From Halopseudomonas nanhaiensis (GTDB taxonomy: Bacteria > Pseudomonadota > Gammaproteobacteria > Pseudomonadales > Pseudomonadaceae): a DNA stretch of 64,000 nt. Location of the stretch: NCBI RefSeq assembly GCF_020025155.1, contig NZ_CP073751.1, forward strand, positions 2,108,001 through 2,172,000, read 5' to 3'. The number at the start of each line of letters is the position of its first letter. The first letter of the stretch is position 1. Both the position numbers and the translations under genes were made by a program. Under the pieces are notes generated by a model. That model did not search any database, was not told the DNA's origin, and saw nothing but the letters and a program-made list of their open reading frames with translations. This document shows positions 4,255-57,867 of this stretch, in pieces.

Positions 4255-5958
4255 ATGTCCGATACCGCTCCGGCGGCAGTGCATTTCGCCGATCTCGGCT
4301 TGCCTGCACCGCTCCTCCAGGCTTTGAGCAGCCTGGGCTATGAAACACCTTCTCCGATTCAGGCAGAGGCGATTCCGACTCTGCTGGCTGGGCAGGATCT
4401 GCTGGGTCTGGCTCAGACCGGCACCGGCAAGACAGCCGCCTTTGCCTTGCCGGTTCTGGCCGGCATCGACGTCAGCTTGCGCGCCACGCAGGCTTTGATC
4501 CTGACTCCCACGCGGGAGCTCGCACTGCAGGTAGCCGAAGCACTGCAGCGCTATGCGCAGAACATGCGCGGTTTCTCCGTGCTGGCGCTGTACGGCGGCT
4601 CGGCTTTCGCGCCGCAATTCAAGGCGCTCGAGCGTGGAGCCCATGTTGTCGTCGCTACGCCGGGTCGTCTGACCGACCACATGCGCCGCGGCAGCATCAA
4701 ATTCGATTCGATGCGCTTCCTGGTGCTCGACGAAGCTGACGAAATGCTCAAGATGGGCTTCGCCGATGATCTCGACGCCGTCTTCGAAAAGGTTCCGGAA
4801 GCCACCCAGAAGGCACTGTTCTCCGCAACCATGCCGGCCGGCGTGCGCACCGTGGCGCGCAAGCACATGCGCGACCCCAAGGAAATTCGCCTGCACAGCG
4901 GCGTGAGCAGCAGTCTGGACACCATCACCCAGAAGGTCTGGGAAGTGTCCAATCATCACAAGCTCGATGCCATGACCCGCCTGCTCGAAGTCGAGCCGGT
5001 CGAGGCGATGATCGTATTCGTCCGCACCAAGACGGCTAGTCTTGAGCTGGCAGAGCGTCTCGAGGCGCGCGGCTTCGCTGCTGCTGCGCTCAATGGCGAC
5101 CTTAGCCAGCAACTGCGTGAGCAGGTGGTCGACCGCCTCAAGCGAGGGTTGCTGGACATCGTTGTGGCCACCGACGTGGCGGCCCGCGGCCTGGACGTCG
5201 AGCGTATTTCGCACGTGTTGAACTATGATCTGCCGCACGACAGCGAGTCCTACGTTCACCGTATCGGTCGTACCGGCCGGGCCGGCCGCTCGGGCACCGC
5301 GATCCTGTTCGCCACCCCGCGTGAGCGCCGTCTTCTGCACGTGCTGGAGAAAGCCACCGGTCAGAAGATCCAGCCGCAGGCCCTGCCCAGTGCCGATGCC
5401 GTTCGCAGCGGTCGACTCAGCAAGCTGGCTGCACGCCTGAACAGCGCGCGAGAAAATACCGGCGCGCTGCATCAGCAACTGGTTCGCGATCTGCTGGAAC
5501 TGACCAACATGGATCCGGAAGAACTGGTTGCCGCGTTGCTGAGCGTGTTGCCAGGCGCCAAAACACTCGTCGAGCCGGTGGCAGATCTGCCTGCCGCGCC
5601 GCCGCGCCGCGAAGGTGCAGATGATCGCGATTCCGGTCTGGTCCGTTACAAGGTTCAGGGTGGCCGCGCAAACAATCTGATGCCCAAGCCGCTGGTTGAT
5701 GCGCTGGTCAAGCATGGTCGGCTTCAGCGCCAGCAGATCGGTCACATCAAGATGTTTACCGAGCACACCGGCGTGTATCTGCCGCAGCTGGACGACGCCA
5801 CACTGGGTCGCCTGGCTGATGTGGAGATCAACGGCGTAGCGCTGCAGATCCGCTCCTGGCCGGCACCGCCCGGCGAGAGCGATCGCCCGCCGCGCCGCGC
5901 ACCGCGCAAGGATTTCGCCGGCAAACCGAAACCTGCGCCAAAGCCCCGCCAGGGCTGA
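4255..5958 (+). CDS. deaD: DEAD-box ATP-dependent RNA helicase (DeaD/CsdA-like)
   Basis: A 567-residue ATP-dependent RNA helicase for ribosome assembly or mRNA turnover. Visible motifs: Q-motif region (PSPIQ), Walker A AQTGTGKT at 53-60, PTRELA, the DEAD box at 159-162, SAT, and HRIGRTGRAGR (motif VI) in the second RecA domain. The C-terminus holds a DbpA-type RNA-binding domain (about residues 470-545: GGRANNLMPK ... GHIKMFTEHTGVYLP), then a short basic, proline-rich tail. The open frame extends 54 codons upstream, but ATG 4255 begins with the family-like MSDTAPAAVHF and has AAGG about 14 bases upstream and a good -10 box nearby. DeaD is preferred over RhlE or DbpA because of the domain order, but the symbol is tentative. 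Confidence 0.87.
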   Translation: MSDTAPAAVHFADLGLPAPLLQALSSLGYETPSPIQAEAIPTLLAGQDLLGLAQTGTGKTAAFALPVLAGIDVSLRATQALILTPTRELALQVAEALQRYAQNMRGFSVLALYGGSAFAPQFKALERGAHVVVATPGRLTDHMRRGSIKFDSMRFLVLDEADEMLKMGFADDLDAVFEKVPEATQKALFSATMPAGVRTVARKHMRDPKEIRLHSGVSSSLDTITQKVWEVSNHHKLDAMTRLLEVEPVEAMIVFVRTKTASLELAERLEARGFAAAALNGDLSQQLREQVVDRLKRGLLDIVVATDVAARGLDVERISHVLNYDLPHDSESYVHRIGRTGRAGRSGTAILFATPRERRLLHVLEKATGQKIQPQALPSADAVRSGRLSKLAARLNSARENTGALHQQLVRDLLELTNMDPEELVAALLSVLPGAKTLVEPVADLPAAPPRREGADDRDSGLVRYKVQGGRANNLMPKPLVDALVKHGRLQRQQIGHIKMFTEHTGVYLPQLDDATLGRLADVEINGVALQIRSWPAPPGESDRPPRRAPRKDFAGKPKPAPKPRQG

Positions 5959-45395: not shown

Positions 45396-46136
45396 TCAAG
45401 AGACGAACGGTCCATTCGCCCACACCAGGCCGACCAGTGCCAGCGCTTCGCCAAGCTCGACCAGCGCACCGGCGGTGTCACCGGTCGTTCCGCCCACTCG
45501 GCGCTTGATCAGCGCGCGCCACACGGCCCCCAGCAGCAATACCGCCAGCAGCCAGCCGAATCCACCGATGACCATCATTGCAAAGCCGTGAACGAACAGT
45601 ACAGCTGGAAGCCAGATACGCGGGATGTGCTCGCTCAAGACCTGTCCCAGGCCGCCAGGGCGAACGTACTGGGTGGTCAGAAGCAATGCCGGCAGCAGCC
45701 AGCGGCCTATCCAGGGCGCGATCAGCAAGGCCCACCACAGATTCATCTCGATGACCGTCACCAGTGCGGCGAACTTGATGAGCAGTACCAGCACCAGCGC
45801 AAGGACGCCCATCGGCCCGCTGGCCGGATCCTTCATGATCGCCAGGGTCTTCTCACGGTCGCCGTGACCGCCTACCCAGGCATCTACCGTATCCGCGAGT
45901 CCGTCGAGATGCAGGCCACCGGTCAACGCCACCCAGAATGCCAGCACCAGCGCCGCCTGGAGCAGGATCGGCAACCCGGCGACGGACCACTGGACAAGCA
46001 GCAGCAACAGACCGACGAGGAAACCCACTACCGGATACCACAGCAGTGAGGCACCGGATTCCTCTGCCTTCGGCGACCGCGACAGACGAATAGGAATGGC
46101 GGTGAGAAACTGCAGGGCGATCATCAGCGGGGTCAT
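45396..46136 (-). CDS. cobS: Adenosylcobinamide-GDP ribazoletransferase (cobalamin synthase)
   Basis: A 246-residue inner-membrane enzyme joining adenosylcobinamide-GDP to alpha-ribazole (or its phosphate) in the last steps of cobalamin assembly. Motifs: start MIALQFLTAIPIR, GGLHLDGLADTVDAW and HGDREKTLAIMKD, which carry the Asp/His residues of the family, with several membrane helices. Last gene of the cobalamin operon; overlaps cobC by four bases. Confidence 0.95.
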   Translation of the reverse strand: MTPLMIALQFLTAIPIRLSRSPKAEESGASLLWYPVVGFLVGLLLLLVQWSVAGLPILLQAALVLAFWVALTGGLHLDGLADTVDAWVGGHGDREKTLAIMKDPASGPMGVLALVLVLLIKFAALVTVIEMNLWWALLIAPWIGRWLLPALLLTTQYVRPGGLGQVLSEHIPRIWLPAVLFVHGFAMMVIGGFGWLLAVLLLGAVWRALIKRRVGGTTGDTAGALVELGEALALVGLVWANGPFVS

Positions 46137-46705
46137 GCTTTTTCCTCTTTCAGGGTGCCGTCTTCGTACCGGTGCAGGCGGACCAGCTCTGCGTAGCCTA
46201 CCTGCACTTGCAACAGATCACGATCGGCCAGTTCGCGAGCCCGAGCCAGCAGCAGACGCATGACCCCGGCATGGGTGACGACCAGCAATCGCTGACCGGC
46301 ATAGCGCAGGGCCAGCGAGGCCAGCTCAGCGATGACCCGCTGGCGGAACGCAGCGACAAGCTCGGCCTGCGGCGGCGTGTAAGCGTACGGATCATTCCAG
46401 AACTGGCCGAGCTCATCGGCCTGATCGAGCATCAGGTCGGCCGGATGTCTGCCCTCCCACAAGCCGAAGTGCAGCTCGCGCAAGTCCGGGCGAATATCCA
46501 CTGCGACCCCACGCGAGTCTGCCAGTTCGGCTGCAAAGGCGGCACACCGTTGCAGTGGAGAAGACACAACGGCGTCCCAACCGTTCAGACCATCGACTGC
46601 GGCGCGCATCTGTGCCCAGCCAGCGGACGTCAACGGGTCATCGACGCTGCCGCGAAAGCCTCCACCCCGCTCGGTCTCCCCATGGCGCAGCAGCTCGAGG
46701 ATCAC
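46133..46705 (-). CDS. cobC: Alpha-ribazole phosphatase (histidine phosphatase family)
   Basis: A 190-residue phosphoglycerate-mutase-like enzyme that dephosphorylates alpha-ribazole phosphate or the corresponding cobalamin phosphate. The start is GTG 46705, which overlaps the cobT stop as GTGA, giving the canonical start [14 protein letters not shown] with the catalytic RHG. Further motifs: [16 protein letters not shown] and VVTHAGVMR. An in-frame ATG 21 codons upstream would lie inside cobT and give a non-family N-terminus. Overlaps cobS by four bases. Confidence 0.92.
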
Positions 46706-47760
46706 GCGGGCGACCCGCTCGATATCGCCGCCTCGGCAAAGGTGGCCATGTCGTTGTGCAGGGCGCACGCCAGTCGCAGCAGAGGCACGGCAGCCGCCGC
46801 CCCGCTGGCCTCGCCCAGGCGCATGTCTATATCGAGCAGAGGCTTTGCCGCGAGAGCCTCAAGCACGTGGCGATGACCCGGTTCGGCGCTGCGGTGGCCA
46901 AACAGCAGCCACGGTCGGACCGTCGCGTTCAGTCGCACGGCGCAGAGCGCTGCAACCGAACAGATATAGCCATCGACCAGTACCGGTACGCCGCGCTGGG
47001 CGGCGCGCACATAGGCGCCTGTCAGCGCGGCGATTTCCAGTCCGCCGAGGCAGGCCAGGGCGTCGAACGGTGCATCCGTTCTCTGCTTGTGCAGGGCCAG
47101 GCCCCGCTCGATGACGGCCAGCTTGCGCTCCACGCCGCGGGCATCCAGTCCAGTGCCCGGCCCGACCAGATCGCGGGGCGCAAGCGTGAGCAGCGCGCTG
47201 GCCAGCGCGCATGCGCTAGTGGTATTGCCAATGCCCATTTCGCCGGCGATGTAGATATCCAGACCATCAGCTACTGCCGCGTCGAGTGCGTCACGGCCCG
47301 CTTCCAGTGCCTGATTGCAGTGCGCGTCGGTCATCGCCGGGGCGCTGCAGAAATTCGTCGAGCCCGGAGCAATGTTCAATTGACTGACACCTGCGAGCGG
47401 CTCGACCGGCGCGGCAAGCCCCAGATCGAACACGCGCAGGTGTGCATTCAGACAGCGAGCCAGCACGTTGATCGCCGCACCGCCATTGGCGAAGTTCGCC
47501 AGCATCTGTCCGGTCACGGCCTGCGGAAATGCCGAAACGCCCTCAGCGACCACCCCATGGTCAGCGGCGAAGATATGAATGGCAAGGCGCTCGGCGTCAG
47601 GTCGCTCGCGACCCTGCAGCGCAGCCAGAGTGATGGCGACCTCTTCCAGCCGCCCCAGCGACCCTGGCGGCTTGGTCAGCTCCGTCTGTCGCGCAGTGGC
47701 GTGGAGCTGGCGTTCTTCGTCAGGCACTGCCGCCGCACCTTCCCACCATGAGCAGGTCAT
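46702..47760 (-). CDS. cobT: Nicotinate-nucleotide--dimethylbenzimidazole phosphoribosyltransferase
   Basis: A 352-residue enzyme activating the lower ligand dimethylbenzimidazole to alpha-ribazole phosphate. Motifs: [11 protein letters not shown] near the N-terminus, [23 protein letters not shown], and [13 protein letters not shown] with the catalytic Glu near the C-terminus. Length matches the family (about 350). It links functionally to bluB, which makes the base, in the same operon. It overlaps cobU by four bases and cobC by GTGA. Confidence 0.96.
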
Positions 47761-48278
47761 CTGCGCTCCCCTTTGAGGATCATTGGCAGACCGGCCACGC
47801 AGAAGGTAACTCGGTCGCTCAGGCCCGCGAGGGTCTGGTGCAGCATACCGGCCTCATCGACATAGCGGCGGGACAGCTCCCCCAGCGGCACCACTCCGAG
47901 ACCGGTCTCATTACTCACCATGATGATATGGCCCGGCAGCGTGGGCAGCACATCAACCAGCGCAGCGCGCTCGATGGCCAAGCGTTGCGGATCATCATGC
48001 AGGAGCAGGTTGGTCAACCACAGTGTCAGGCAGTCGATCAGAATGCAGCGATCGTCCCGCGCAGATCGAAGCAGAGCCTCGGCCAGCGCGACAGGCTCCT
48101 CGATCAGCGCCCAGTGCGCGGGACGTCGATCGCGATGATGGGCTATCCGCTCGGCCATCGCAGTGTCCAGCGGCTGGCTGGTGGCAACATAGGTGACCGC
48201 CAGACCCGACGCGTCGGCAGTCTGCTCAGCGAGGCGGCTCTTGCCGGAACGAGCGCCGCCCAATATCAATTCAATCAT
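47757..48278 (-). CDS. cobU: Adenosylcobinamide kinase / adenosylcobinamide-phosphate guanylyltransferase
   Basis: A 173-residue bifunctional enzyme. The P-loop GGARSGKS is at residues 7-14, and a middle motif HRDRRPAHW contains the His of the guanylylation site. [13 protein letters not shown] is a family block. It converts adenosylcobinamide to its GDP ester for CobS. Called cobP in Pseudomonas denitrificans nomenclature. Overlaps cobQ and cobT by four bases each. Confidence 0.95.
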
Positions 48279-49732
48279 AGGGTTACACCAATTAGCTCAC
48301 GCAACTTGCGCAGATCAAGATACCCCTCTATCAAGTCGGCAAGGCGATCAATGTCGCGGGCGCGCAGGGCTGCGTAATCGTGCTGCTCAACCTGCTTCAG
48401 TCCGGCCCATGTCAGCAGCGCGGTGCTTGCCTCGGCCCCTTCGAACAGTCCATGCAGATAGGTGCCGGCGATCTGGCCGTCGCTGCTCAGAACACCATCC
48501 GGCGTCCCGTCATCGAGTCGCAGCAGTGGGTGACCGAGCGCCGGGCCGGCGCTGACCCCGGCATGGATCTCGTAACCGCGCACCGCAGCGCCATGCAGTG
48601 CCAGCCGTCCCGAGACGTTGGCCAGTCGCTTCTCCGGTTGCAATGTGGTCGAAAAATCCAGCAGGCCGAACCCGGCGGAATCCCCCGGCGGCCCCTCGAG
48701 CCCCAGCGGATCGCAGACGCGACGGCCAAGCATCTGCAGTCCGCCACAGATGCCCAGCAGGCGGCCGCCGTAGCGAAGATGCCGAGCTATGGCCTGCTCC
48801 CAGCCCTCCCGGCGCAGGAACGCGAGATCCGACCGCACGCTCTTGGATCCGGGCAGAATGATCAGGTCCGAGGGTGGGATCGGCTCGCCCGAACGAACGA
48901 GCGTCAGGTCCACCTGTGGATGCAGGCGCAGCGGATCGAAATCGGTGTGGTTGCTGATGCGCGGCAGCACCGGCACCACGACCTTTAGCGCAACTGCAGG
49001 TTTGCATGGCTGGCTGGCATTGACCGCATCTTCTGCTTCGAGATGAAGGTCGTGAAGATAGGGCAAGACGCCGAGCACCGGTATACCGGTCCGCGCCTCG
49101 AGCCAGTCGATGCCCGGTTGCAGCAGGCTGACATCGCCGCGAAAGCGGTTGATCACGAACCCACGGACCCGGGCGCGCTCGCTCGCCGACAGCAGCTCCA
49201 GCGTGCCGACCAGATGGGCGAATACCCCGCCCTTGTCGATATCGGCGATCAGCAACACCGGACAGTCCACCGCTTCAGCAAAGCCCATGTTGGCGATATC
49301 GCCCTCACGAAGGTTGATCTCTGCCGGTGACCCTGCGCCCTCTACCATGACCACCTGATAGCGCTGGCGAAGACGTTCGTGGGAGGCCAACACTGCCCGC
49401 ATCGCTTCCGGCTTGTAGGCATGATAGGCACGCGCGTCCATGCAGCCGACCGCGTGCCCGTGGATGATCACCTGCGCGCCGGTGTCCGTATTGGGCTTGA
49501 GCAGCACCGGGTTCATGTCGGTATGCGGCGCGACGCCAGCGGCCTCGGCCTGGACCGCCTGAGCGCGGCCGATCTCACCGCCGTCGACCGTGACGGCCGA
49601 ATTGAGCGCCATGTTCTGCGGCTTGAACGGCGCCACGCTGACCCCCTGGCGCACCAGCCAGCGACACAGCGCGGTAACCAGCGTGCTCTTGCCGGCATCC
49701 GACGTCGTGCCCTGGACCATGATGGTCGACAT
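48275..49732 (-). CDS. cobQ: Cobyric acid synthase (glutamine-hydrolysing)
   Basis: A 485-residue amidotransferase adding four amide groups to adenosylcobyrinic acid a,c-diamide. The N-terminal ATPase part has GTTSDAGKS and [11 protein letters not shown]. The C-terminal glutaminase domain has the nucleophile Cys in [13 protein letters not shown] 49732 is used because it follows the cobD stop by one base and gives [12 protein letters not shown]; a longer frame is open 25 codons upstream. Confidence 0.95.
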
Positions 49733-49733
49733 G

Positions 49734-50726
49734 TCAGCTGACCTCCGCAAACGCTTGCAACGCCGTGTCCAGGCGACGCCAACCGGACTCATCGCCGGGT
49801 AAGCCAATGCGTACTGCCGCGCGCTCCGGGAACAGACGAATGAGCACGCCCTGTCGAGCGAGGCAGTCCTGCAGCGCGCGCGCGTCGGGATGTTCGATCC
49901 ACTGGAACAACGCGCAGCCTCCTGCAGGTTTCAGGCCCCGAGCGCACAGCAGCGCCGCCAGGCGCTCCCCGTCTGCCAAGAGCCGACTTCTCCACCTGTC
50001 CTGTGTCGAGCGGTCCGCCAGCGCACGCTGGCCGACATGGCGAGTGGGTCCGCTGACGGTCCACGGGCCGAGCGTCTCTGCCAGCTGCAGCAGGACCGAC
50101 TCGCCGGCCAGTACAAAACCCAACCGCGCCCCGCCGAGGCCGAAGAACTTGCCGAGCGAACGCAGGACGATCAGGCCTTGCAGGTGCGAGTAGCTCGCCA
50201 GACTGTGTTCAGGCGTTGTATCAACAAAGGCTTCGTCGACGATCAGACAGCCATCGCGCCGGGCCAGCGCTGCATGCCAGTGGAGCAGCTGTTCGACCGT
50301 GAACAACCGCCCGGTCGGGTTGTTGGGATTGACCAGCGCAAGCACGTCGAGCTGCTCCAGACGAGTATCCACGTCCGCTTCGGAAGCAAGCGATATTGGC
50401 GCAAAGCCCGCCATCTCCCAGGCGCGCCGGTGTTCGGCGTAGCAGGGCTCGACGATACCCACACGACAACCCCGGAACAGGCCCGGCAAAGACTGGATGG
50501 CAGCCTGGGAACCGGCTACCGGCAGCAGGAAGCGCGCGCCGTAATAGGCACAGGCAGCCTCTTCCAGTCCGTCCCCCTCCTCGGGCAGCCGGTGCCACAT
50601 ATCCGGCGGAACCGATGCAAGCGGCCAGGCGTAGGGCGCCAGGCCGGTAGAGAGATCGAGCCAGTCCCCAGTAGGAATACCGTACTCCAGCGCGGCCCGT
50701 CGCAACCGCCCGCCATGCTCAAGCAT
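49734..50726 (-). CDS. cobD: Threonine-phosphate decarboxylase
   Basis: A 330-residue PLP enzyme producing (R)-1-amino-2-propanol phosphate, the linker of the nucleotide loop. The PLP Lys lies in [16 protein letters not shown], and NPNNPTGR is a fold-type I motif. Called CobC in the aerobic (P. denitrificans) scheme; the symbol cobD follows Salmonella. It overlaps cbiB by eight bases. Some Pseudomonas genomes order these genes the same way. Confidence 0.92.
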
Positions 50727-51624
50727 GGCTCAGCCCCCAGATAATGAATGCGACTACCACCCAGAGCATCACGCTGCGGCGCACCAGACGCAGGGCATGC
50801 AGGATGTCGACCTCGGCCGGTTCCGGGCCGGCGCCAAGCAGCGGACGATGGTGGACCGCGCCGTCGTACGTGGCAGCGCCCCCCAGACTCACGCCCAGCG
50901 CCCCGGCGCCGGAAGCCATTACCGGCCCGGCGTTGGGGCTGTCCCAAAGCGGCGCCTGTTGGGCCCAGCAGGTCAGGGCGAGTCGCGTCTTGCCACACAG
51001 GGCATAGGTGAACGCGACCAGGCGTGCCGGAAGGTAGTTGAGCAGATCATCGATTTTCGCGGCAGCCCAGCCGAAATGCAGAAAGCGTTCGTTACGGTAG
51101 CCCCACATGGCGTCCAGCGTATTGGCCAGCCGATATAGCACCGCGCCCGGACCGCCGAAGATGGCGAACCAGAACAACGCCGCGAACACGGCATCGCTGC
51201 CGTTTTCCAGTACCGACTCGGTGGTCGCGCGGGCGACGCCGGCCTCATCAAGGGACTGAGTATTGCGGCTGACGATACGGCCCACCCGCTCGCGAGCGGC
51301 CTCCAGGTTGCCCGCACCCAGGGCGCGGACGATCGGCATGGCATGTTCCGAGAGGCTGCGCATTCCGATCGCCAGATACAGCAGCACCATCTCGACCAGC
51401 CAGCCGATACCGGGCAGATTGGACAGCAGCCAGGCCACAAAGGTAAGTGGGAGCACCGCCAGCGACCACCCCACTATTCCCCGCTTGCGCCGGGGGTGGC
51501 CGCGGTTGAAACGCAACTCGATAGCCGAGGCCAACCAGCCGAAGCCGACCAGCGGATGCCAGCGACGCGGCTCACCGAACAGTTGATCCAGCAGGATAGC
51601 GCCGAGCATCAGGGGGGCCATCAA
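50719..51624 (-). CDS. cbiB: Adenosylcobinamide-phosphate synthase, membrane protein
   Basis: A 301-residue membrane enzyme attaching the aminopropanol (or phosphate form) to adenosylcobyric acid. Motifs: [18 protein letters not shown] near the N-terminus, [28 protein letters not shown]-type block with Asp, and [11 protein letters not shown]. Several membrane helices. Named CobD in P. denitrificans nomenclature, so the cobD/cbiB symbols are easily confused. Overlaps cobD by eight bases and the btuF-like gene by four. Confidence 0.93.
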
Positions 51625-52418
51625 CTCATCCTCTGAGCAGCTTCACGGACCCGCAGCTGCAGCTGATCGAGGCCCAGCGTCAACGCCGATATGCCCGGCT
51701 GGAGGATGTCCGGCGATTTGATCTCATGGACCTGGCCATGCTGGATCGCGGGAATCGATTGCCAGCCCTCGCGCTCGCTCAGTTGTTCGGGACGAAACCG
51801 CTTGCCGCACCACGAACCGATAATCAAATCCGGGGCACGACGTACCACCTCCTGCGGATCGTTGATGTATCGCTGTCTTGCTCGGGGGTGATGGCTCAGC
51901 TCCGCAAAGCAGTCTTCGCCACCGGCGATATCGATCAACTCGCTGACCCAACGAATGCCGGAGATGAGCGGGTCGTTCCATTCCTCGAAGTAGACGCGGG
52001 GCTTGGCCGACAAGGTGGCCGCCTGCTGACGGGCCAGGTCGAGCCGAGCGCTCAGGGTCTCTACCAGATCGGCCGCGCGCGCGGTGCAGCCAACCAGCGC
52101 GCCGAGGGTTTCGATCATCCGCAGGATGCCGGCTATATCGCGCTGATTGAACAGATGAACTTCAAGCCCTTCCCGGGCCAGTTCGGCGGCTATGCCCGCC
52201 TGGAGGTCACAGTAACCTAGCACCAGGTCCGGCTTGAGCTCCAGGATCTTCTCCGTTTTCGCGCTGGTAAAGGCGGACACCTTCGGCTTTTCCCGGCGGG
52301 CTTGAGGCGGGTGCACGGTGAAGCCGGAAATGCCGGCTATGCGCCGGTCTTCGCCCAGACGATAGAGCACTTCACAGGTTTCGGTAGACAGGCAGACGAT
52401 ACGCTGCGGTCCCTTCAT
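51621..52418 (-). CDS. BtuF-like cobalamin-binding protein without signal peptide
   Basis: A 265-residue protein with the periplasmic-binding-protein fold of the BtuF/helical-backbone group ([16 protein letters not shown]-like [26 protein letters not shown]). The ATG at 52418 overlaps the bluB stop as ATGA and the protein starts [13 protein letters not shown] with no signal peptide. A longer frame is open upstream but yields no signal peptide either. The family normally delivers cobalamin in the periplasm to BtuCD, but there is no btuC or btuD here, so role and location are unclear. Confidence 0.82.
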
Positions 52419-53062
52419 TGCTGCCCCCAACTGTCTGTAAACACCAGTTCTTCCAAAGGACGGGGTTGGGCCCAGCCCTCCTGCTCCAGCATGGGCCGCG
52501 TGTAGAACTCGGCCACCGGTCCGAGACACAGCACGGCAACCGGCCTGGCGTCGGATGGCATGTTCAGCAGCTCTGCGAGCGCAGCAGGGTCGAACAACGA
52601 CACCCAGCCCATCCCCAGACCTTCGGCACGTGCAGCCAGCCACATGTTCTGGATCGCGCAGGAAAGTGAAGCCAGATCCATTTCCGGCAGCGTGCGGCGA
52701 CCGAATACATGCTTGTCACGCCCGTCCGGAAGCGCGGCGATCAACAACTCTGCGCAGTCGAGGATGCCTTCTACCTTGAGTTGCATGAAGTCATCGCCCC
52801 GTTCACCCAGCGCCTCGGCGGTCAGCCGACGCTCGGCCTCGACCAGCGCATGAATCATGCGGCGACGCTCGAGTTGGGAAATGCGAAGAAACCGCCAGGG
52901 CTGCATCAAACCGACGCTCGGCGCATGGTGGGCAGCCTGAAGCAGTCGGGCCAGCACCTCGGGCGCCACCTCGCCGCCGCAGAAATGGCGCATATCACGC
53001 CGCTCCCGGATGGCACGGTAAACAGCCGCACGTTCGGCGTCGGAAAAGGCCTGGTTACTCAT
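52415..53062 (-). CDS. bluB: 5,6-dimethylbenzimidazole synthase
   Basis: A 215-residue flavin-destructase that fragments reduced FMN with oxygen to give the lower ligand of cobalamin. Motifs of the nitroreductase-like fold: VYRAIRERRDMRHF, HHAPSVGLMQPWRF and WLAARAEGLGMGWVSLF. ATG 53062 gives a normal N-terminus (MSNQAFSDAERAAVY) and overlaps the cobB stop by ATGA; 39 extra open codons upstream are not used. It supplies the substrate of cobT. Confidence 0.93.
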   Translation of the reverse strand: MSNQAFSDAERAAVYRAIRERRDMRHFCGGEVAPEVLARLLQAAHHAPSVGLMQPWRFLRISQLERRRMIHALVEAERRLTAEALGERGDDFMQLKVEGILDCAELLIAALPDGRDKHVFGRRTLPEMDLASLSCAIQNMWLAARAEGLGMGWVSLFDPAALAELLNMPSDARPVAVLCLGPVAEFYTRPMLEQEGWAQPRPLEELVFTDSWGQQ

Positions 53063-54351
53063 GGCTTGAACAGCGCCGCCACCGCAGCCGGGTTGCCGGG
53101 GAAATATAGATGAATGTAGGAAGCCGTCAGGCGACCGATGCGATACACCGCTTCGGCCGTGCGCTTGTAGTTCGGACATTCGCCACGCGCCAGGAAAGGG
53201 AGCTCGCAGTGCATGGACGAATGATGGAAGGTGTGCCCGCGCAGCCGGCCTTCTGGCAGATCGACTTCCTGCAGCGCCAGCGCGGCCAGACGTTTTTGCA
53301 TCGTTACCTGGCCCGGCACCAGCCCGACCAGTTCCGCGGTCCTGCCCTCTGCATCCGTCAGCGTCTCAGACAGATAGAGCATGCCGCCGCACTCGGCAAG
53401 GATCGGCTTGCCCGCGCGTTGGTGCTGACGGATCGATCCCAGCATCGATGCATTCGCCGACAGCGCTTCCAGATGCAGCTCGGGATAGCCACCTGGCAGA
53501 TAGAGGCTATCAACCTCGGGCATCGCCACGTCCGTCAGGGGAGAGAAAAACGTGAGCTCGGCGCCCAGGGACTGAAGCACATCCAGGTTGGCCTGGTAGA
53601 GAAACGCGAATGCCGCGTCGCGTGCCACCCCAATGCGCACGCCCTCCAGCACCCGCGCCTCGGGTGCGCGCGGCTCGCCAGAAAAGCTTACCGCTGCCGG
53701 CAGCGTCGCACCGGCACTCGCCAGCAAGGCGTCAGCTGCTGCATCCAGACGGGCATCGAGATCGGCCAGTTCATCGGCTTGCACCAGGCCAAGATGCCGG
53801 CTGGGCAGTGTGACGTCTTCGCTGCGCGGGAGTGCGCCGTACCAGTGCATACCCGCCGGGAGGCTGTCGCGCAGGATCTCGCCGTGACGCGCGCTGCCCA
53901 CCTTGTTGCCCAGCACGCCGGAGAACGGCAGGTCTGGCTGGAAATGCGCCAGCCCATGAGCCATCGCACCAAAGGTCTGCGCCATGCCCGACCCGTCGAT
54001 AACGCCCATCACCGGCACGCCGAACCGCCGAGCGAGATCCGCCGCCGACGGGTTGCCGTCGAACAGACCCATCACGCCTTCGATCAGAATCAGATCGGCC
54101 TCGCCCGCGGCTTCCCAGAGCATGCGCCGGCTTTCCTGCTCGCCAATCATCCACAGGTCAAGCTGATAGACCGGTTGGCCGCTGGCGCGCCTGAGGATCA
54201 TCGGATCGAGAAAGTCCGGGCCACACTTGAAGACCCGCACGCGACGCCCTTCGCGGGCATGCAGTCGGGCCAGCGCAGCGGTAACCGTGGTCTTGCCCTG
54301 CCCTGAAGCCGGTGCCGCGACAAGCAGCGCCGGGCATGTGCGATCGGTCAA
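53059..54351 (-). CDS. cobB: Cobyrinic acid a,c-diamide synthase
   Basis: A 430-residue ATP-dependent amidotransferase adding amides at positions a and c of (hydrogeno)byrinic/cobyrinic acid. The N-terminal ATPase has APASGQGKTTV, GPDFLDPMIL and EGVMGLFDG. The glutaminase part has the active Cys in AECGGMLYLSETL and the ending HTFHHSSM. Overlaps cobO and bluB by four bases. Confidence 0.94.
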   Translation of the reverse strand: MTDRTCPALLVAAPASGQGKTTVTAALARLHAREGRRVRVFKCGPDFLDPMILRRASGQPVYQLDLWMIGEQESRRMLWEAAGEADLILIEGVMGLFDGNPSAADLARRFGVPVMGVIDGSGMAQTFGAMAHGLAHFQPDLPFSGVLGNKVGSARHGEILRDSLPAGMHWYGALPRSEDVTLPSRHLGLVQADELADLDARLDAAADALLASAGATLPAAVSFSGEPRAPEARVLEGVRIGVARDAAFAFLYQANLDVLQSLGAELTFFSPLTDVAMPEVDSLYLPGGYPELHLEALSANASMLGSIRQHQRAGKPILAECGGMLYLSETLTDAEGRTAELVGLVPGQVTMQKRLAALALQEVDLPEGRLRGHTFHHSSMHCELPFLARGECPNYKRTAEAVYRIGRLTASYIHLYFPGNPAAVAALFKP

Positions 54352-54956
54352 AACTCCACTCCCTTCTGAGCCTTGATGCCCGCCTTGAAGGCGTGCTTGA
54401 CCACGCCCATCTCGGTCACCGTGTCAGCGGCTTCGATCAACTCGGGCGGGGCGCCGCGTCCGGTCACCACCACGTGCTGATGCATCGGCCTAGAGCCGAT
54501 GTCCTTCACCACCTGCTCAACCTCGAGATAACGGTACTTCAGCGCAATGTTCAGCTCATCCAGCACCACCAGGGCGATGTCCGGATCGCTCATCAGCTCC
54601 ACGGCCACAGCCCATGCAGCCTGAGCCTTGGCCATGTCGTCCTTGCGGTCCTGGGTTTCCCAGGTAAAGCCGGCGCCCATCACGTGATAGCGGACTTCGT
54701 CAGGGAAAAGACGGAAAAACGTCTCCTCGCCGGTGCTCCGCGCACCCTTGATGAACTGGACGATACCCACCTTGTAACCATGGCCGAGCGAGCGAGCGGC
54801 CATACCGAAAGCAGAACTGCTCTTGCCCTTGCCGTTGCCCGTCAGCACCAGCAACAGACCGTGCTCGTCCTGCGCCTGGGCAATCTTCTCGTCCATCACC
54901 GCCTTCTTGCGCTGCATTCGCAGGCGGTGACGTTCATCCCGCTCGGCGTCGCTCAC
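54348..54956 (-). CDS. cobO: Cob(I)yrinic acid a,c-diamide adenosyltransferase (CobA/CobO family)
   Basis: A 202-residue enzyme transferring adenosyl from ATP to the cobalt. The P-loop is TGNGKGKSS at about residues 39-47, with VGIVQFIKGA, LVVLDELNIAL and VVVTGRGAPPELIEAAD following. Corresponds to BtuR/CobO. Overlaps cobB by four bases and the BtuM-like gene by four. Confidence 0.95.
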   Translation of the reverse strand: MSDAERDERHRLRMQRKKAVMDEKIAQAQDEHGLLLVLTGNGKGKSSSAFGMAARSLGHGYKVGIVQFIKGARSTGEETFFRLFPDEVRYHVMGAGFTWETQDRKDDMAKAQAAWAVAVELMSDPDIALVVLDELNIALKYRYLEVEQVVKDIGSRPMHQHVVVTGRGAPPELIEAADTVTEMGVVKHAFKAGIKAQKGVEF

Positions 54957-55528
54957 ACGCGGTGATCCTGCCCGCCACGAAGCGGCGCGGCAGCGTAGAA
55001 TGCGGCGTACAACAGCGCAGCGATAGCGACGTAAAACGCCATGGTCGACAGGTACTGCGGGTAGTAGACGGCGATGCGTTCAAGCATGCCGACGAAGGTC
55101 GGCTCGGCGTACCGGCCCGAGAAGAAGTAGAACCCGCCGCTGGAGAACAGCTGACACACCAGCGCGCTGCCTGCCATGACAGCTGCCAACGTCGACAGGC
55201 TGCGGACGCTATCCTGATGCCAGCGGGCGTAGAGGCGACCGCCGAACCAGAGGGCACCGTAGGCCGGAACCAGCATCCAGTAGGCAACGGTCATGCAATG
55301 GTGGCCGGCATTGGTCCAGCCGACGCTCATCACATCCATGAAGGTTGCCTGCAGGAACAACGCAGGGAAAACCCAGCGCGGGCGCAGCAGCACGCCAGCG
55401 AGGAAGAACACCGCCCATGAGGCGCTCGGCAGGTCGACCAGATTGAAATGGCTGCCGCGTGTCATTGCCATCAGCAGGACCAGCGCAATGCCGACCGCAA
55501 TCTGGCTACGTTTTGAAAGTTCGAGCAT
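54953..55528 (-). CDS. btuM: Putative BtuM-type cobalamin transporter (solitary S component)
   Basis: A 191-residue integral membrane protein with about six hydrophobic segments, no signal peptide, and only two cysteines: C78 (WTNAGHHCMTVAYWML) and C125. Length, the start region TRGSHFNLVDLPSASWAVFFLAG and the position of C78 resemble BtuM of Thiobacillus denitrificans, in which Cys80 coordinates the cobalt of cobalamin. Placement between btuB and cobO in a riboswitch-controlled operon, with no BtuCD, fits an inner-membrane vitamin B12 uptake protein. Assignment is from memory of the family; a cobalt-uptake protein is the main alternative. Confidence 0.62.
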   Translation of the reverse strand: MLELSKRSQIAVGIALVLLMAMTRGSHFNLVDLPSASWAVFFLAGVLLRPRWVFPALFLQATFMDVMSVGWTNAGHHCMTVAYWMLVPAYGALWFGGRLYARWHQDSVRSLSTLAAVMAGSALVCQLFSSGGFYFFSGRYAEPTFVGMLERIAVYYPQYLSTMAFYVAIAALLYAAFYAAAPLRGGQDHRV

Positions 55529-55566: not shown

Positions 55567-57387
55567 TCAGATCGGTTGGTAGCGCAAGGTGAGATAGCCT
55601 GCCCGCCCCGGCTGCTGATAGGTGCGAGCGGTTTCGTAATCATTGTCGAACAGGTTGGTGACGCTGACCTGAACGCGCCAGGCATGGCTGAACCAGTACT
55701 GCGCGCGCAGATCGACTGTATTGTAGCCAGACAATTCGTTGGTGTTCGCTGCATTGTCCCAACGACGGCCTTCCGTATGCAGGCTGGCTCCGACGCCGAT
55801 CGAGCCGAAGCGGCGGTCTACGTCCAGATTGAACAACTGCTCGGCGCGGCGCGCCAGGAGATCACCCTGATTCGCGCGGTTGGACCGATTGGCCGGGTCC
55901 TGCAAGGTGAGATTGCCGCGCCAGTCCCAACCCTGCCACTGGCTGCCTACATCAAACTCGATGCCACGGATCACCGCACGATCGATGTTGTAGGCGCGGA
56001 GCCCGTCGCCCTGGTTGAAGTAGGCAATCAGGTCTTCGATCTCGTTGCGAAACACCGCGACGGACCAGTCTCCCCAACCATGATTCCCGTTCAGGCCCAC
56101 CTCGACGTTGCGAGAGGTCTCGTCAGTGATACCGGGGTTGCCGTTGATGGGATGGTAGAGTTGGTTGAAGGTGGGCGCCTTGTAGGCGGTGCCATAGCTG
56201 GCGGTCGCCTGAATGGCGCGGTTGACGGCAAACCCATAGCCGATACTGCCGGTATTGTGGCGGCCATGCTCCTGGTTGTCGTCGCTGCGTACGCCTAGTT
56301 GCCAGCTATGGCGGCCGAAGTCGGCGAGGTATTGGGCATACACGCCGTGGTTGTCCCGGCTGTCTTCACGGAAGTCCGTGGTGCCGTTGACCGAATCCTC
56401 GAGATAATCGTAGCCGAGGGTCAGCAACTGATCCGTGCCGACCTGCAGGTCGTTCTGCCAACCGAAGCTGTCGCGACGGGTATCGATGCGTGTGTTGAAC
56501 ACACTGCCATTGAAGGTATCGAGCTTGTCCTCGCTGCGCCCTGCCTGCAACGTGACCTGCCAGGGCTCGAGCGGAGCAAAGGCTGCTCGCGCTCCATAGG
56601 TCTTGAGCACGTTATCGGCATTGGCGAGGCGGCCGGAATCGAAGTCGTTGTGCGAGCGCACTTCGGTAAGATAGCCATCCAGCGCCAGACCGCTGTCGAA
56701 GCGATAGCCGCCGTTGAGGCTGGCCGACAATTCGCGATACCCGTCATGGTCCGGCTCCGGTGCAGGTGAGCCCGGCCGCGCATCAATGCCACGCGTATCC
56801 AGGCTGCTGACGCCAAGGTTGTACCAGGCGCTGCCCTGTCCGCCCGACACACCCGCACTGCCGGCGTGATGGTTGTGGCTGCCGGCGGTGATCGATGCAT
56901 AGGGCGTGACGCCGTCCTGTTCACCGCGTCGGGTGAATATCTGGATGACGCCACCGATCGCTTCCGAACCGTACAGACTGGAGCGCGGCCCTCGCACAAC
57001 TTCGATGCGTTCGATCAGCTCGACCGGCAGGTTCTGCCAGGCCGCATCACCGGTTGTGGCCGATCCCGTGCGCACGCCGTCGATCAGTACCAGTACGTGG
57101 TTGCTGTTGCTGCCTCGAATGCTGACCGTCGTATTCTTGCCCGCGCCGCCCGTGTTTGTCAGGCTGAGTCCGGGTACCCGGCGCAGAAGATCCGGCACAT
57201 TGTTGGCCTGCAGACGCTCGATTTCGTAACGGCCGATCACACTGGTCGCGGCGATACCGGGGGTGGTGCTCTGAGTGGTTCGGGTGGCCGTGACCACCTG
57301 ATCGTCGAGGCGATAGGGGTTTGCTACGGATGACGTGGAAATAGCGAAGATGGCCGCGGCGACCGAGGCGGAAAGAAGAGTATTCAT
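55567..57387 (-). CDS. btuB: TonB-dependent vitamin B12 receptor
   Basis: A 606-residue outer-membrane receptor. Signal peptide at the start (MNTLLSASVAAAIFAIS, cut near SVAN), TonB box DDQVVTATR at about residues 27-36, plug domain with NVPDLLRRVPGLSL, SIRGSNSNHVLVLIDG and IEVVRGPRSSLYGSEAIGG, then a 22-strand-type barrel. The final residue is Ile in LTLRYQPI, where Phe is commoner in outer-membrane barrels. First gene of the operon, 39 bases before the BtuM-like gene; translation and probably the whole operon are under the cobalamin riboswitch. Confidence 0.93.
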   Translation of the reverse strand: MNTLLSASVAAAIFAISTSSVANPYRLDDQVVTATRTTQSTTPGIAATSVIGRYEIERLQANNVPDLLRRVPGLSLTNTGGAGKNTTVSIRGSNSNHVLVLIDGVRTGSATTGDAAWQNLPVELIERIEVVRGPRSSLYGSEAIGGVIQIFTRRGEQDGVTPYASITAGSHNHHAGSAGVSGGQGSAWYNLGVSSLDTRGIDARPGSPAPEPDHDGYRELSASLNGGYRFDSGLALDGYLTEVRSHNDFDSGRLANADNVLKTYGARAAFAPLEPWQVTLQAGRSEDKLDTFNGSVFNTRIDTRRDSFGWQNDLQVGTDQLLTLGYDYLEDSVNGTTDFREDSRDNHGVYAQYLADFGRHSWQLGVRSDDNQEHGRHNTGSIGYGFAVNRAIQATASYGTAYKAPTFNQLYHPINGNPGITDETSRNVEVGLNGNHGWGDWSVAVFRNEIEDLIAYFNQGDGLRAYNIDRAVIRGIEFDVGSQWQGWDWRGNLTLQDPANRSNRANQGDLLARRAEQLFNLDVDRRFGSIGVGASLHTEGRRWDNAANTNELSGYNTVDLRAQYWFSHAWRVQVSVTNLFDNDYETARTYQQPGRAGYLTLRYQPI

Positions 57388-57511
57388 TGGTGTCTGGCTG
57401 CTCCGTCGTGCCTACCCGCACGACCCTGCTGTTGGTAATGCAGGGGCGAACAACGCTGGCAGACGGCACGCGAGCCGCACACCCGCAGAAGCCCGCCGCT
57501 CTGCTGTGAAA
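57388..57511 (-). promoter_or_regulatory. btuB leader between riboswitch and start codon
   Basis: About 124 bases that likely contain the riboswitch expression platform. GC-rich inverted segments are present (CGGGCTTCTGCGGG region), but I could not settle whether it acts by termination or by hiding the ribosome-binding site. No gene was seen on either strand here. Confidence 0.4.
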
Positions 57512-57732
57512 GCGTCAGGCCGGTCTCCGGGCTCACAAGTGAATGATCCATCACATGGATCGTCGATTCGGCGATTGCACCTTCCCATGCCGAGGCACAG
57601 TGGTCTGAGCGATCGCTGCCGGCCAGATGGCTGGCGGCACTTGTATACCGTTGCGGGGGCAGCGCCGGGTTTGCTCATCGAGCGTACCGGCTTCCCAGTT
57701 TCACCCACCGAATCATTGGCGGGCACCTGAAG
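57512..57732 (-). promoter_or_regulatory. Cobalamin (AdoCbl) riboswitch
   Basis: On the minus strand, in order: GGTGCC ... GTGGGTGAAACTGGGAAGCC, then GCTGCCCCCGCAACGGTA, CACTGTGCC, GGGAAGG, and the B12 box GAGCCCGGAGACCGGCC (box centre 57518-57533). These are the defining conserved elements of the cobalamin aptamer. It ends about 125 bases before the btuB ATG, leaving room for an expression platform. High cobalamin should shut off btuB and the downstream genes. Confidence 0.95.
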
Positions 57733-57867
57733 CAGGCGCAAGGTTAGAAGTTTTGTAACAAGGCGTCAACGGAGATTGCGGTTCGGCGGTGCATTGCGGA
57801 TAGCGGATTTGCCACAACGCCTGCCAGTCGTCACCATGAAACGGGACAGTCTGTCAGGAGTCGCGTC

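Follow-up and report, generated by a model that had tools for sequence, protein, structure and literature searches.

BtuM was reportedly first predicted by Rodionov and colleagues in 2003. The closest described protein is that of Thiobacillus denitrificans (Tbd_2719; structures 8c7p and 8ovv), in which Cys80 is the cobalt ligand and H28, D67, Y85 and R153 are conserved pocket residues (PMC6072759). It rescues the B12-dependent growth of Escherichia coli lacking btuC and btuF, for which Cys80 is needed, and does the same with hydroxocobalamin; facilitated diffusion with trapping by BtuR has been proposed as its mode of action (PMC6072759). The movement of cargo by solitary S-components is still called unclear (PMC11109136). 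In E. coli itself, inner-membrane uptake of B12 behind the receptor BtuB is the task of BtuCDF. A twelve-gene corrinoid salvage cluster with a cobalamin riboswitch and btuM beside btuB is described from Azotobacter chroococcum (PMC4465626), and BtuM has been reported in a Stutzerimonas (PMC10378866), so BtuM in salvage operons with a riboswitch and btuB is already in print. The passages on btuM in the former paper call it an optional receptor component and do not discuss a role as lone inner-membrane importer.

The window, the whole stretch of 64,000 nucleotides from Halopseudomonas nanhaiensis that was analysed, contains an operon of this kind. All features are on the minus strand, and where a role is taken from position this is stated.

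57501-57745, minus: cobalamin riboswitch (RF00174), head of the operon; cmscan 87.2 bits, gathering threshold 31.5
55567-57387, minus: btuB, outer-membrane B12 receptor; TIGR01779 654.4 bits, cut-off 599.7
54953-55528, minus: btuM, with Cys78 corresponding to Cys80 of T. denitrificans BtuM; phmmer 1.4e-47 to 8c7p, pocket residues, fold
54348-54956, minus: cobO/btuR, corrinoid adenosyltransferase with a GTG start; PF02572 3.2e-64, start table
53059-54351, minus: cobB-type amidotransferase (CbiA + GATase_3); PF07685, PF01656
52415-53062, minus: bluB, 5,6-dimethylbenzimidazole synthase, ATG at 53062; TIGR02476 250.1 bits, cut-off 150
51621-52418, minus: leaderless BtuF-like protein, 265 residues, predicted cytoplasmic; PF01497 2.6e-44, ATG at 52418, leaderless orthologues, fold
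50719-51621, minus: cbiB/cobD-type cobinamide-phosphate synthase; PF03186 3.1e-95
49734-50726, minus: class I/II aminotransferase in the position of the cobC/cobD decarboxylase; PF00155 1e-28, role from position
48275-49732, minus: cobQ, cobyric acid synthase; PF07685, PF01656, PF13500
47757-48278, minus: cobU, cobinamide kinase/guanylyltransferase; PF02283 6e-58
46702-47760, minus: cobT-type phosphoribosyltransferase; PF02277 1.2e-128
46133-46768, minus: histidine phosphatase-family protein in the position of cobC; PF00300 4.2e-43, role from position
45396-46136, minus: cobS, cobalamin-5-phosphate synthase; PF02654 1.6e-54

A preliminary description of this DNA had placed a 191-residue multi-helix protein between btuB and cobO in a riboswitch operon, and both the reading frame and the riboswitch upstream of btuB and btuM were confirmed; the plus-strand frame over the same stretch contains stops. 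Between the btuM stop and the GTG with which cobO begins there is an overlap of 4 nt. A start codon overlaps the btuM stop likewise in 46 of 53 related loci, a count that describes the junctions only, because in some of the loci translation may really begin at an ATG 3 nt downstream and in three of the 53 cobO is not beside btuM or another gene stands there. A promoter scan gave 2 sites against a mean of 2.4 in shuffled sequences, that is no excess, and terminator-like sites numbered 12 against 7.2 in the corresponding comparison; the interpretation below draws on neither.

The 191-residue protein is a BtuM by sequence, fold, pocket residues and context. When it was searched with phmmer against all PDB sequences the best match was BtuM 8c7p (1.4e-47, residues 2-180), and the remaining two matches were weak (E 0.09) and unrelated, while Pfam and NCBIfam scans of the protein gave no match at the thresholds used. 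It is in the same length class as T. denitrificans BtuM, with 82 of 179 positions identical (46%), and Cys78, which the preliminary description had put near the position of Cys80, aligns with it exactly; H27, D65, Y83 and R151 correspond to the pocket residues H28, D67, Y85 and R153. All five residues are identical in each of the 53 BtuM loci from named genomes. These loci were retrieved with two search patterns, one of which included the cysteine as an HCM motif; 38 of the 53 lack this motif and were therefore retrieved by the other pattern. The AlphaFold model (33 sequences; mean pLDDT 85.7) is a multi-helix bundle for which Foldseek finds 8c7p first (E 8.9e-12; TM 0.84/0.89) and 8ovv second (E 2.4e-11), followed by ECF S-components with E 0.34 or worse and TM about 0.45-0.57. 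A best match to a different membrane family without the cysteine, which had been named as the outcome that would speak against BtuM, was thus not what the comparisons gave. Chance is no explanation for the identification, because the phmmer match is so strong and the gene order of the operon is conserved in other species.

As in T. denitrificans, the gene lies next to an adenosyltransferase gene (PMC6072759). The difference is that btuM here belongs to a long salvage operon together with a leaderless BtuF-like gene, and that the protein is known from its sequence. Compared with E. coli BtuCDF, BtuM has neither an ATPase nor a periplasmic binding protein in its operon, although a BtuF-type protein is encoded elsewhere in the genome. 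The predicted model resembles the S-components of ECF transporters (RibU, FolT, ThiT and the solitary BioY), but above-threshold sequence matches to these are lacking and no ECF module was found in the genome. The earlier statement that no btuC or btuD accompanies btuB or the BtuF-like gene was borne out by a Pfam scan of ten operon proteins, among which there was no permease or ABC ATPase of this kind.

We consider it very likely that the gene encodes a true BtuM which imports corrinoids without an ECF module or ATPase, the cargo being trapped by CobO and the salvage enzymes. In such a scheme BtuB would deliver corrinoids (B12, and probably cobinamide) into the periplasm, and BtuM would hold the corrinoid in the base-off state with Cys78 on the cobalt and move it across the inner membrane without ATP or ECF module. 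The adjacent CobO, which would adenosylate the corrinoid, and the salvage enzymes of the same operon, which would complete the cofactor, would together provide the pull for net uptake. The riboswitch is expected to turn the operon off when cobalamin is plentiful. Transport, cobalt-cysteine ligation and decyanation by the protein are proposed here by analogy with T. denitrificans BtuM, and metabolic trapping and the direction of flux in H. nanhaiensis are likewise what we infer. The pairing of BtuB with a solitary importer, suggested in the preliminary description, is supported by sequence, fold, pocket, context and the missing ECF module, and this well-supported BtuM is probably responsible for the inner-membrane step in a B12 salvage operon that is run by a riboswitch and common to many Pseudomonadaceae.

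The protein could also be a membrane decyanase or a corrinoid-binding protein only, and not a transporter. T. denitrificans BtuM slowly decyanates cobinamide, and transport by the purified protein is not demonstrated in that work (PMC6072759), but its rescue of an E. coli deficient in btuC and btuF, with hydroxocobalamin too (PMC6072759), and the S-component-like fold that the model predicts to be kept here make this highly improbable.

The nature of the cargo is a less one-sided question. No match to CobH was found in the genome, nor any to the CbiQ/EcfT family, for which 10 of 14 controls were positive. The genome therefore probably depends on corrinoid salvage, and MetH is present; the organism is probably a corrinoid salvager, with the missing ring synthesis read from the single marker CobH. 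The operon includes cbiB, cobU, cobT, cobS and bluB, whose products complete cobinamide, and T. denitrificans BtuM has a Kd of about 0.6 uM for cobinamide (PMC6072759). Together with the missing CobH match, this would fit a BtuM that mainly imports cobinamide or another incomplete corrinoid in preference to complete B12. On the other hand, the T. denitrificans protein allows growth on B12 as well, and B12 was the ligand in its crystals (PMC6072759), and in Azomonas agilis none of the other operon genes is matched inside the 20 kb locus that holds btuB and btuM, which fits uptake of finished B12. A preference for incomplete corrinoids is in our opinion possible but less likely than not.

The FecCD permeases of the genome were searched for a dedicated BtuCD. 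There are nine FecCD permease matches in the genome, the ninth at C1:82722 with 30 bits, and six binding proteins of PF01497, four of which adjoin FecCD systems. Reading frames were inspected around six of the permease loci (L001-L005 and L007), and two, L001 and L003, were tested as BtuC. Among these two of the nine matches no dedicated btuCD was found: BtuC models are their top NCBIfam matches, yet the scores are below the BtuC cut-offs, and among solved structures a heme permease is the closest to them. L001 was rejected as BtuC as it is of heme type according to the solved matches and its ATPase, and L003 was rejected as its companion binding protein matches a ferrichrome/ferrioxamine model best, itself below the cut-off.

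Two features of the genome are of interest in this respect.

C1:3311191-3312276: periplasmic BtuF-type protein; PF01497 family, hydrophobic N-terminus
C1:3141861-3142994: orphan permease of a permease/ATPase pair; FecCD, HmuUV-like

The orphan BtuF-type protein and the orphan permease/ATPase pair may form an ABC side route for B12, and they could even be the main route, which would leave BtuM a secondary role, for instance in decyanation or with cobinamide. The best solved match of the BtuF-type protein is V. cholerae BtuF (5ysc, 6.4e-35), which together with the hydrophobic N-terminus favours such an importer, but the score against the BtuF model NF002894 is 126 bits with a cut-off of 234. 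Its gene faces, in convergent orientation, a second btuB-like gene (473.4 bits; cut-off 599.7) behind its own cobalamin riboswitch, which also speaks for the ABC route; against it, no riboswitch was found at the BtuF region in the four genus-mates examined (G001, G021, G005 and G010). The orphan permease has BtuC models as its best NCBIfam matches, below cut-off (251.5 bits against 334 for NF003001 and 268.5 against 461 for NF007081), whereas the hemin permeases BhuU and HmuU come ahead of BtuC among solved structures, the ATPase of the pair passes the cut-off of a heme model (312.3 against 261), and a gene for the heme-type protein ChaN follows. In H. nanhaiensis and in G011 no binding protein, HmuT-like or other, was found beside this permease; its counterparts in G001 and G006 have an HmuT-like protein as a neighbour, to which G001 adds a HemS protein. 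The relatives point in both directions. The nearly complete genomes G001 and G021 have MetH and the periplasmic BtuF but neither BtuM nor cobO, and BtuM is therefore not the sole B12 solution in the genus, if those cells use B12. Conversely, G003 (92% complete) and G006 (100%) have BtuM and only weak matches to the periplasmic BtuF of H. nanhaiensis. With the heme signature of the permease pair, we find it unlikely that the main route is an ABC importer, and continue to regard BtuM as the likely inner-membrane step.

The region of the second riboswitch, the btuB-like gene and the convergent BtuF-type gene (L027:224-3477; C1:3309023-3312276) contains no permease gene among its listed reading frames. 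The set of heme-type permease, ATPase and ChaN without an HmuT-like gene (L029:2244-4995 in H. nanhaiensis and L150:2730-5443 in G011) may be what remains of a heme operon that has lost some of its genes, or the permease may have taken on another function.

The fresh lead of the operon is a clade of leaderless BtuF-like proteins that co-occurs with BtuM. The gene between bluB and cbiB had been called BtuF-like in the preliminary description. Its membership of the binding-protein family stands (PF01497, 2.6e-44), but there is no signal peptide when the protein is read from the ATG at 52418, and the score of 44.5 bits against the BtuF model NF002894 is below the cut-off of 234. This start codon overlaps the 3' end of bluB, and the first residues already belong to the domain or lead directly into it. 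An orthologue is present in 28 of the 53 BtuM loci, one of them cut by a contig end, and with the starts chosen here all 28 lack a leader; in 11 of them the frame is closed no more than 15 codons before the domain, and in others the start is a matter of judgement, because the frame continues upstream into bluB. The absence of a leader was judged from hydropathy and the reading of starts, without a signal-peptide program: the N-terminal hydropathy maximum is 0.95-1.38 in the leaderless group against 1.97 in the periplasmic BtuF. Being without a leader, the protein should therefore be cytoplasmic, and as the start is read here we have rejected it as a periplasmic partner of the operon.

The model of the leaderless protein (pLDDT 92.1) has the fold of class III binding proteins. 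Its structural matches are headed by an iron-binding protein, with heme binders next and V. cholerae BtuF in eighth place, and in sequence comparison with solved proteins this iron-binding protein again ranks first and BtuF second, while one orthologue has BtuF as its best match. When the six cavity residues of BtuF (PMC5269720) are mapped by eye in an alignment, F33, F50 and Y69 fall at Y50, W66 and W85, whereas for the remaining three no clear conservation is seen. In the phylogenetic tree the leaderless proteins form one side of a branch with a support of 100/99, apart from the periplasmic BtuFs. Descent from the periplasmic BtuF of the genus itself is unsupported in view of this branch, and the exact place of the group is unsure through several long branches.

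BtuM is found in 90 of the 298 sampled genomes of the Pseudomonadaceae, and the leaderless protein in 36 of the 298 (in two pieces in G255), all 36 of them with BtuM. The contrast between 36 of 90 genomes with BtuM and 0 of 208 without it gives a Fisher value of 5e-22, but the association is inflated because of shared ancestry and because the operon moves as a block (in the genus, the 15 of 25 genomes with BtuM are also those with cobO). We found no description of a leaderless BtuF in a BtuM operon in the open-access literature searched. That this conserved protein is, in our sample, found only with BtuM leads to a testable idea for the cytoplasmic end of the transport: it could be a dedicated cytoplasmic corrinoid acceptor that takes the base-off corrinoid from BtuM and passes it on to CobO. 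We put this forward as a tentative and somewhat doubtful suggestion. If true, a solitary S-component would be partnered by a binding protein across the membrane, and the fold of periplasmic binding proteins would serve in the cytoplasm to power import.

The hosts of the BtuM loci are mostly Halopseudomonas, Pseudomonas and Stutzerimonas, but Azotobacter, Azomonas, Dyella, Frateuria and Hydrocarboniphaga are also represented. A btuB gene is present in 52 of the 53 loci and cobO in 49. In three Pseudomonas loci (L077, L082 and L083, downstream of 10570) there is no cobO, and cobB follows directly after btuM; another adenosyltransferase may serve these genomes. A relative of BtuM with 64% identity is found in Azotobacter vinelandii CA (L051:10001-10522), which contrasts with the statement that btuM is absent from A. 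vinelandii DJ (PMC4465626).

A third cobalamin riboswitch in the genome of H. nanhaiensis lies directly before a gene for a CobN-like protein (L028:352-5599; C1 from 321651). This protein has a signal-like N-terminus and a C-terminal helix, and its gene is followed by one of the MotA/ExbB family; the locus also holds a reading frame at 5108-5599. It may encode a chelatase-like system that is exported and controlled by B12.
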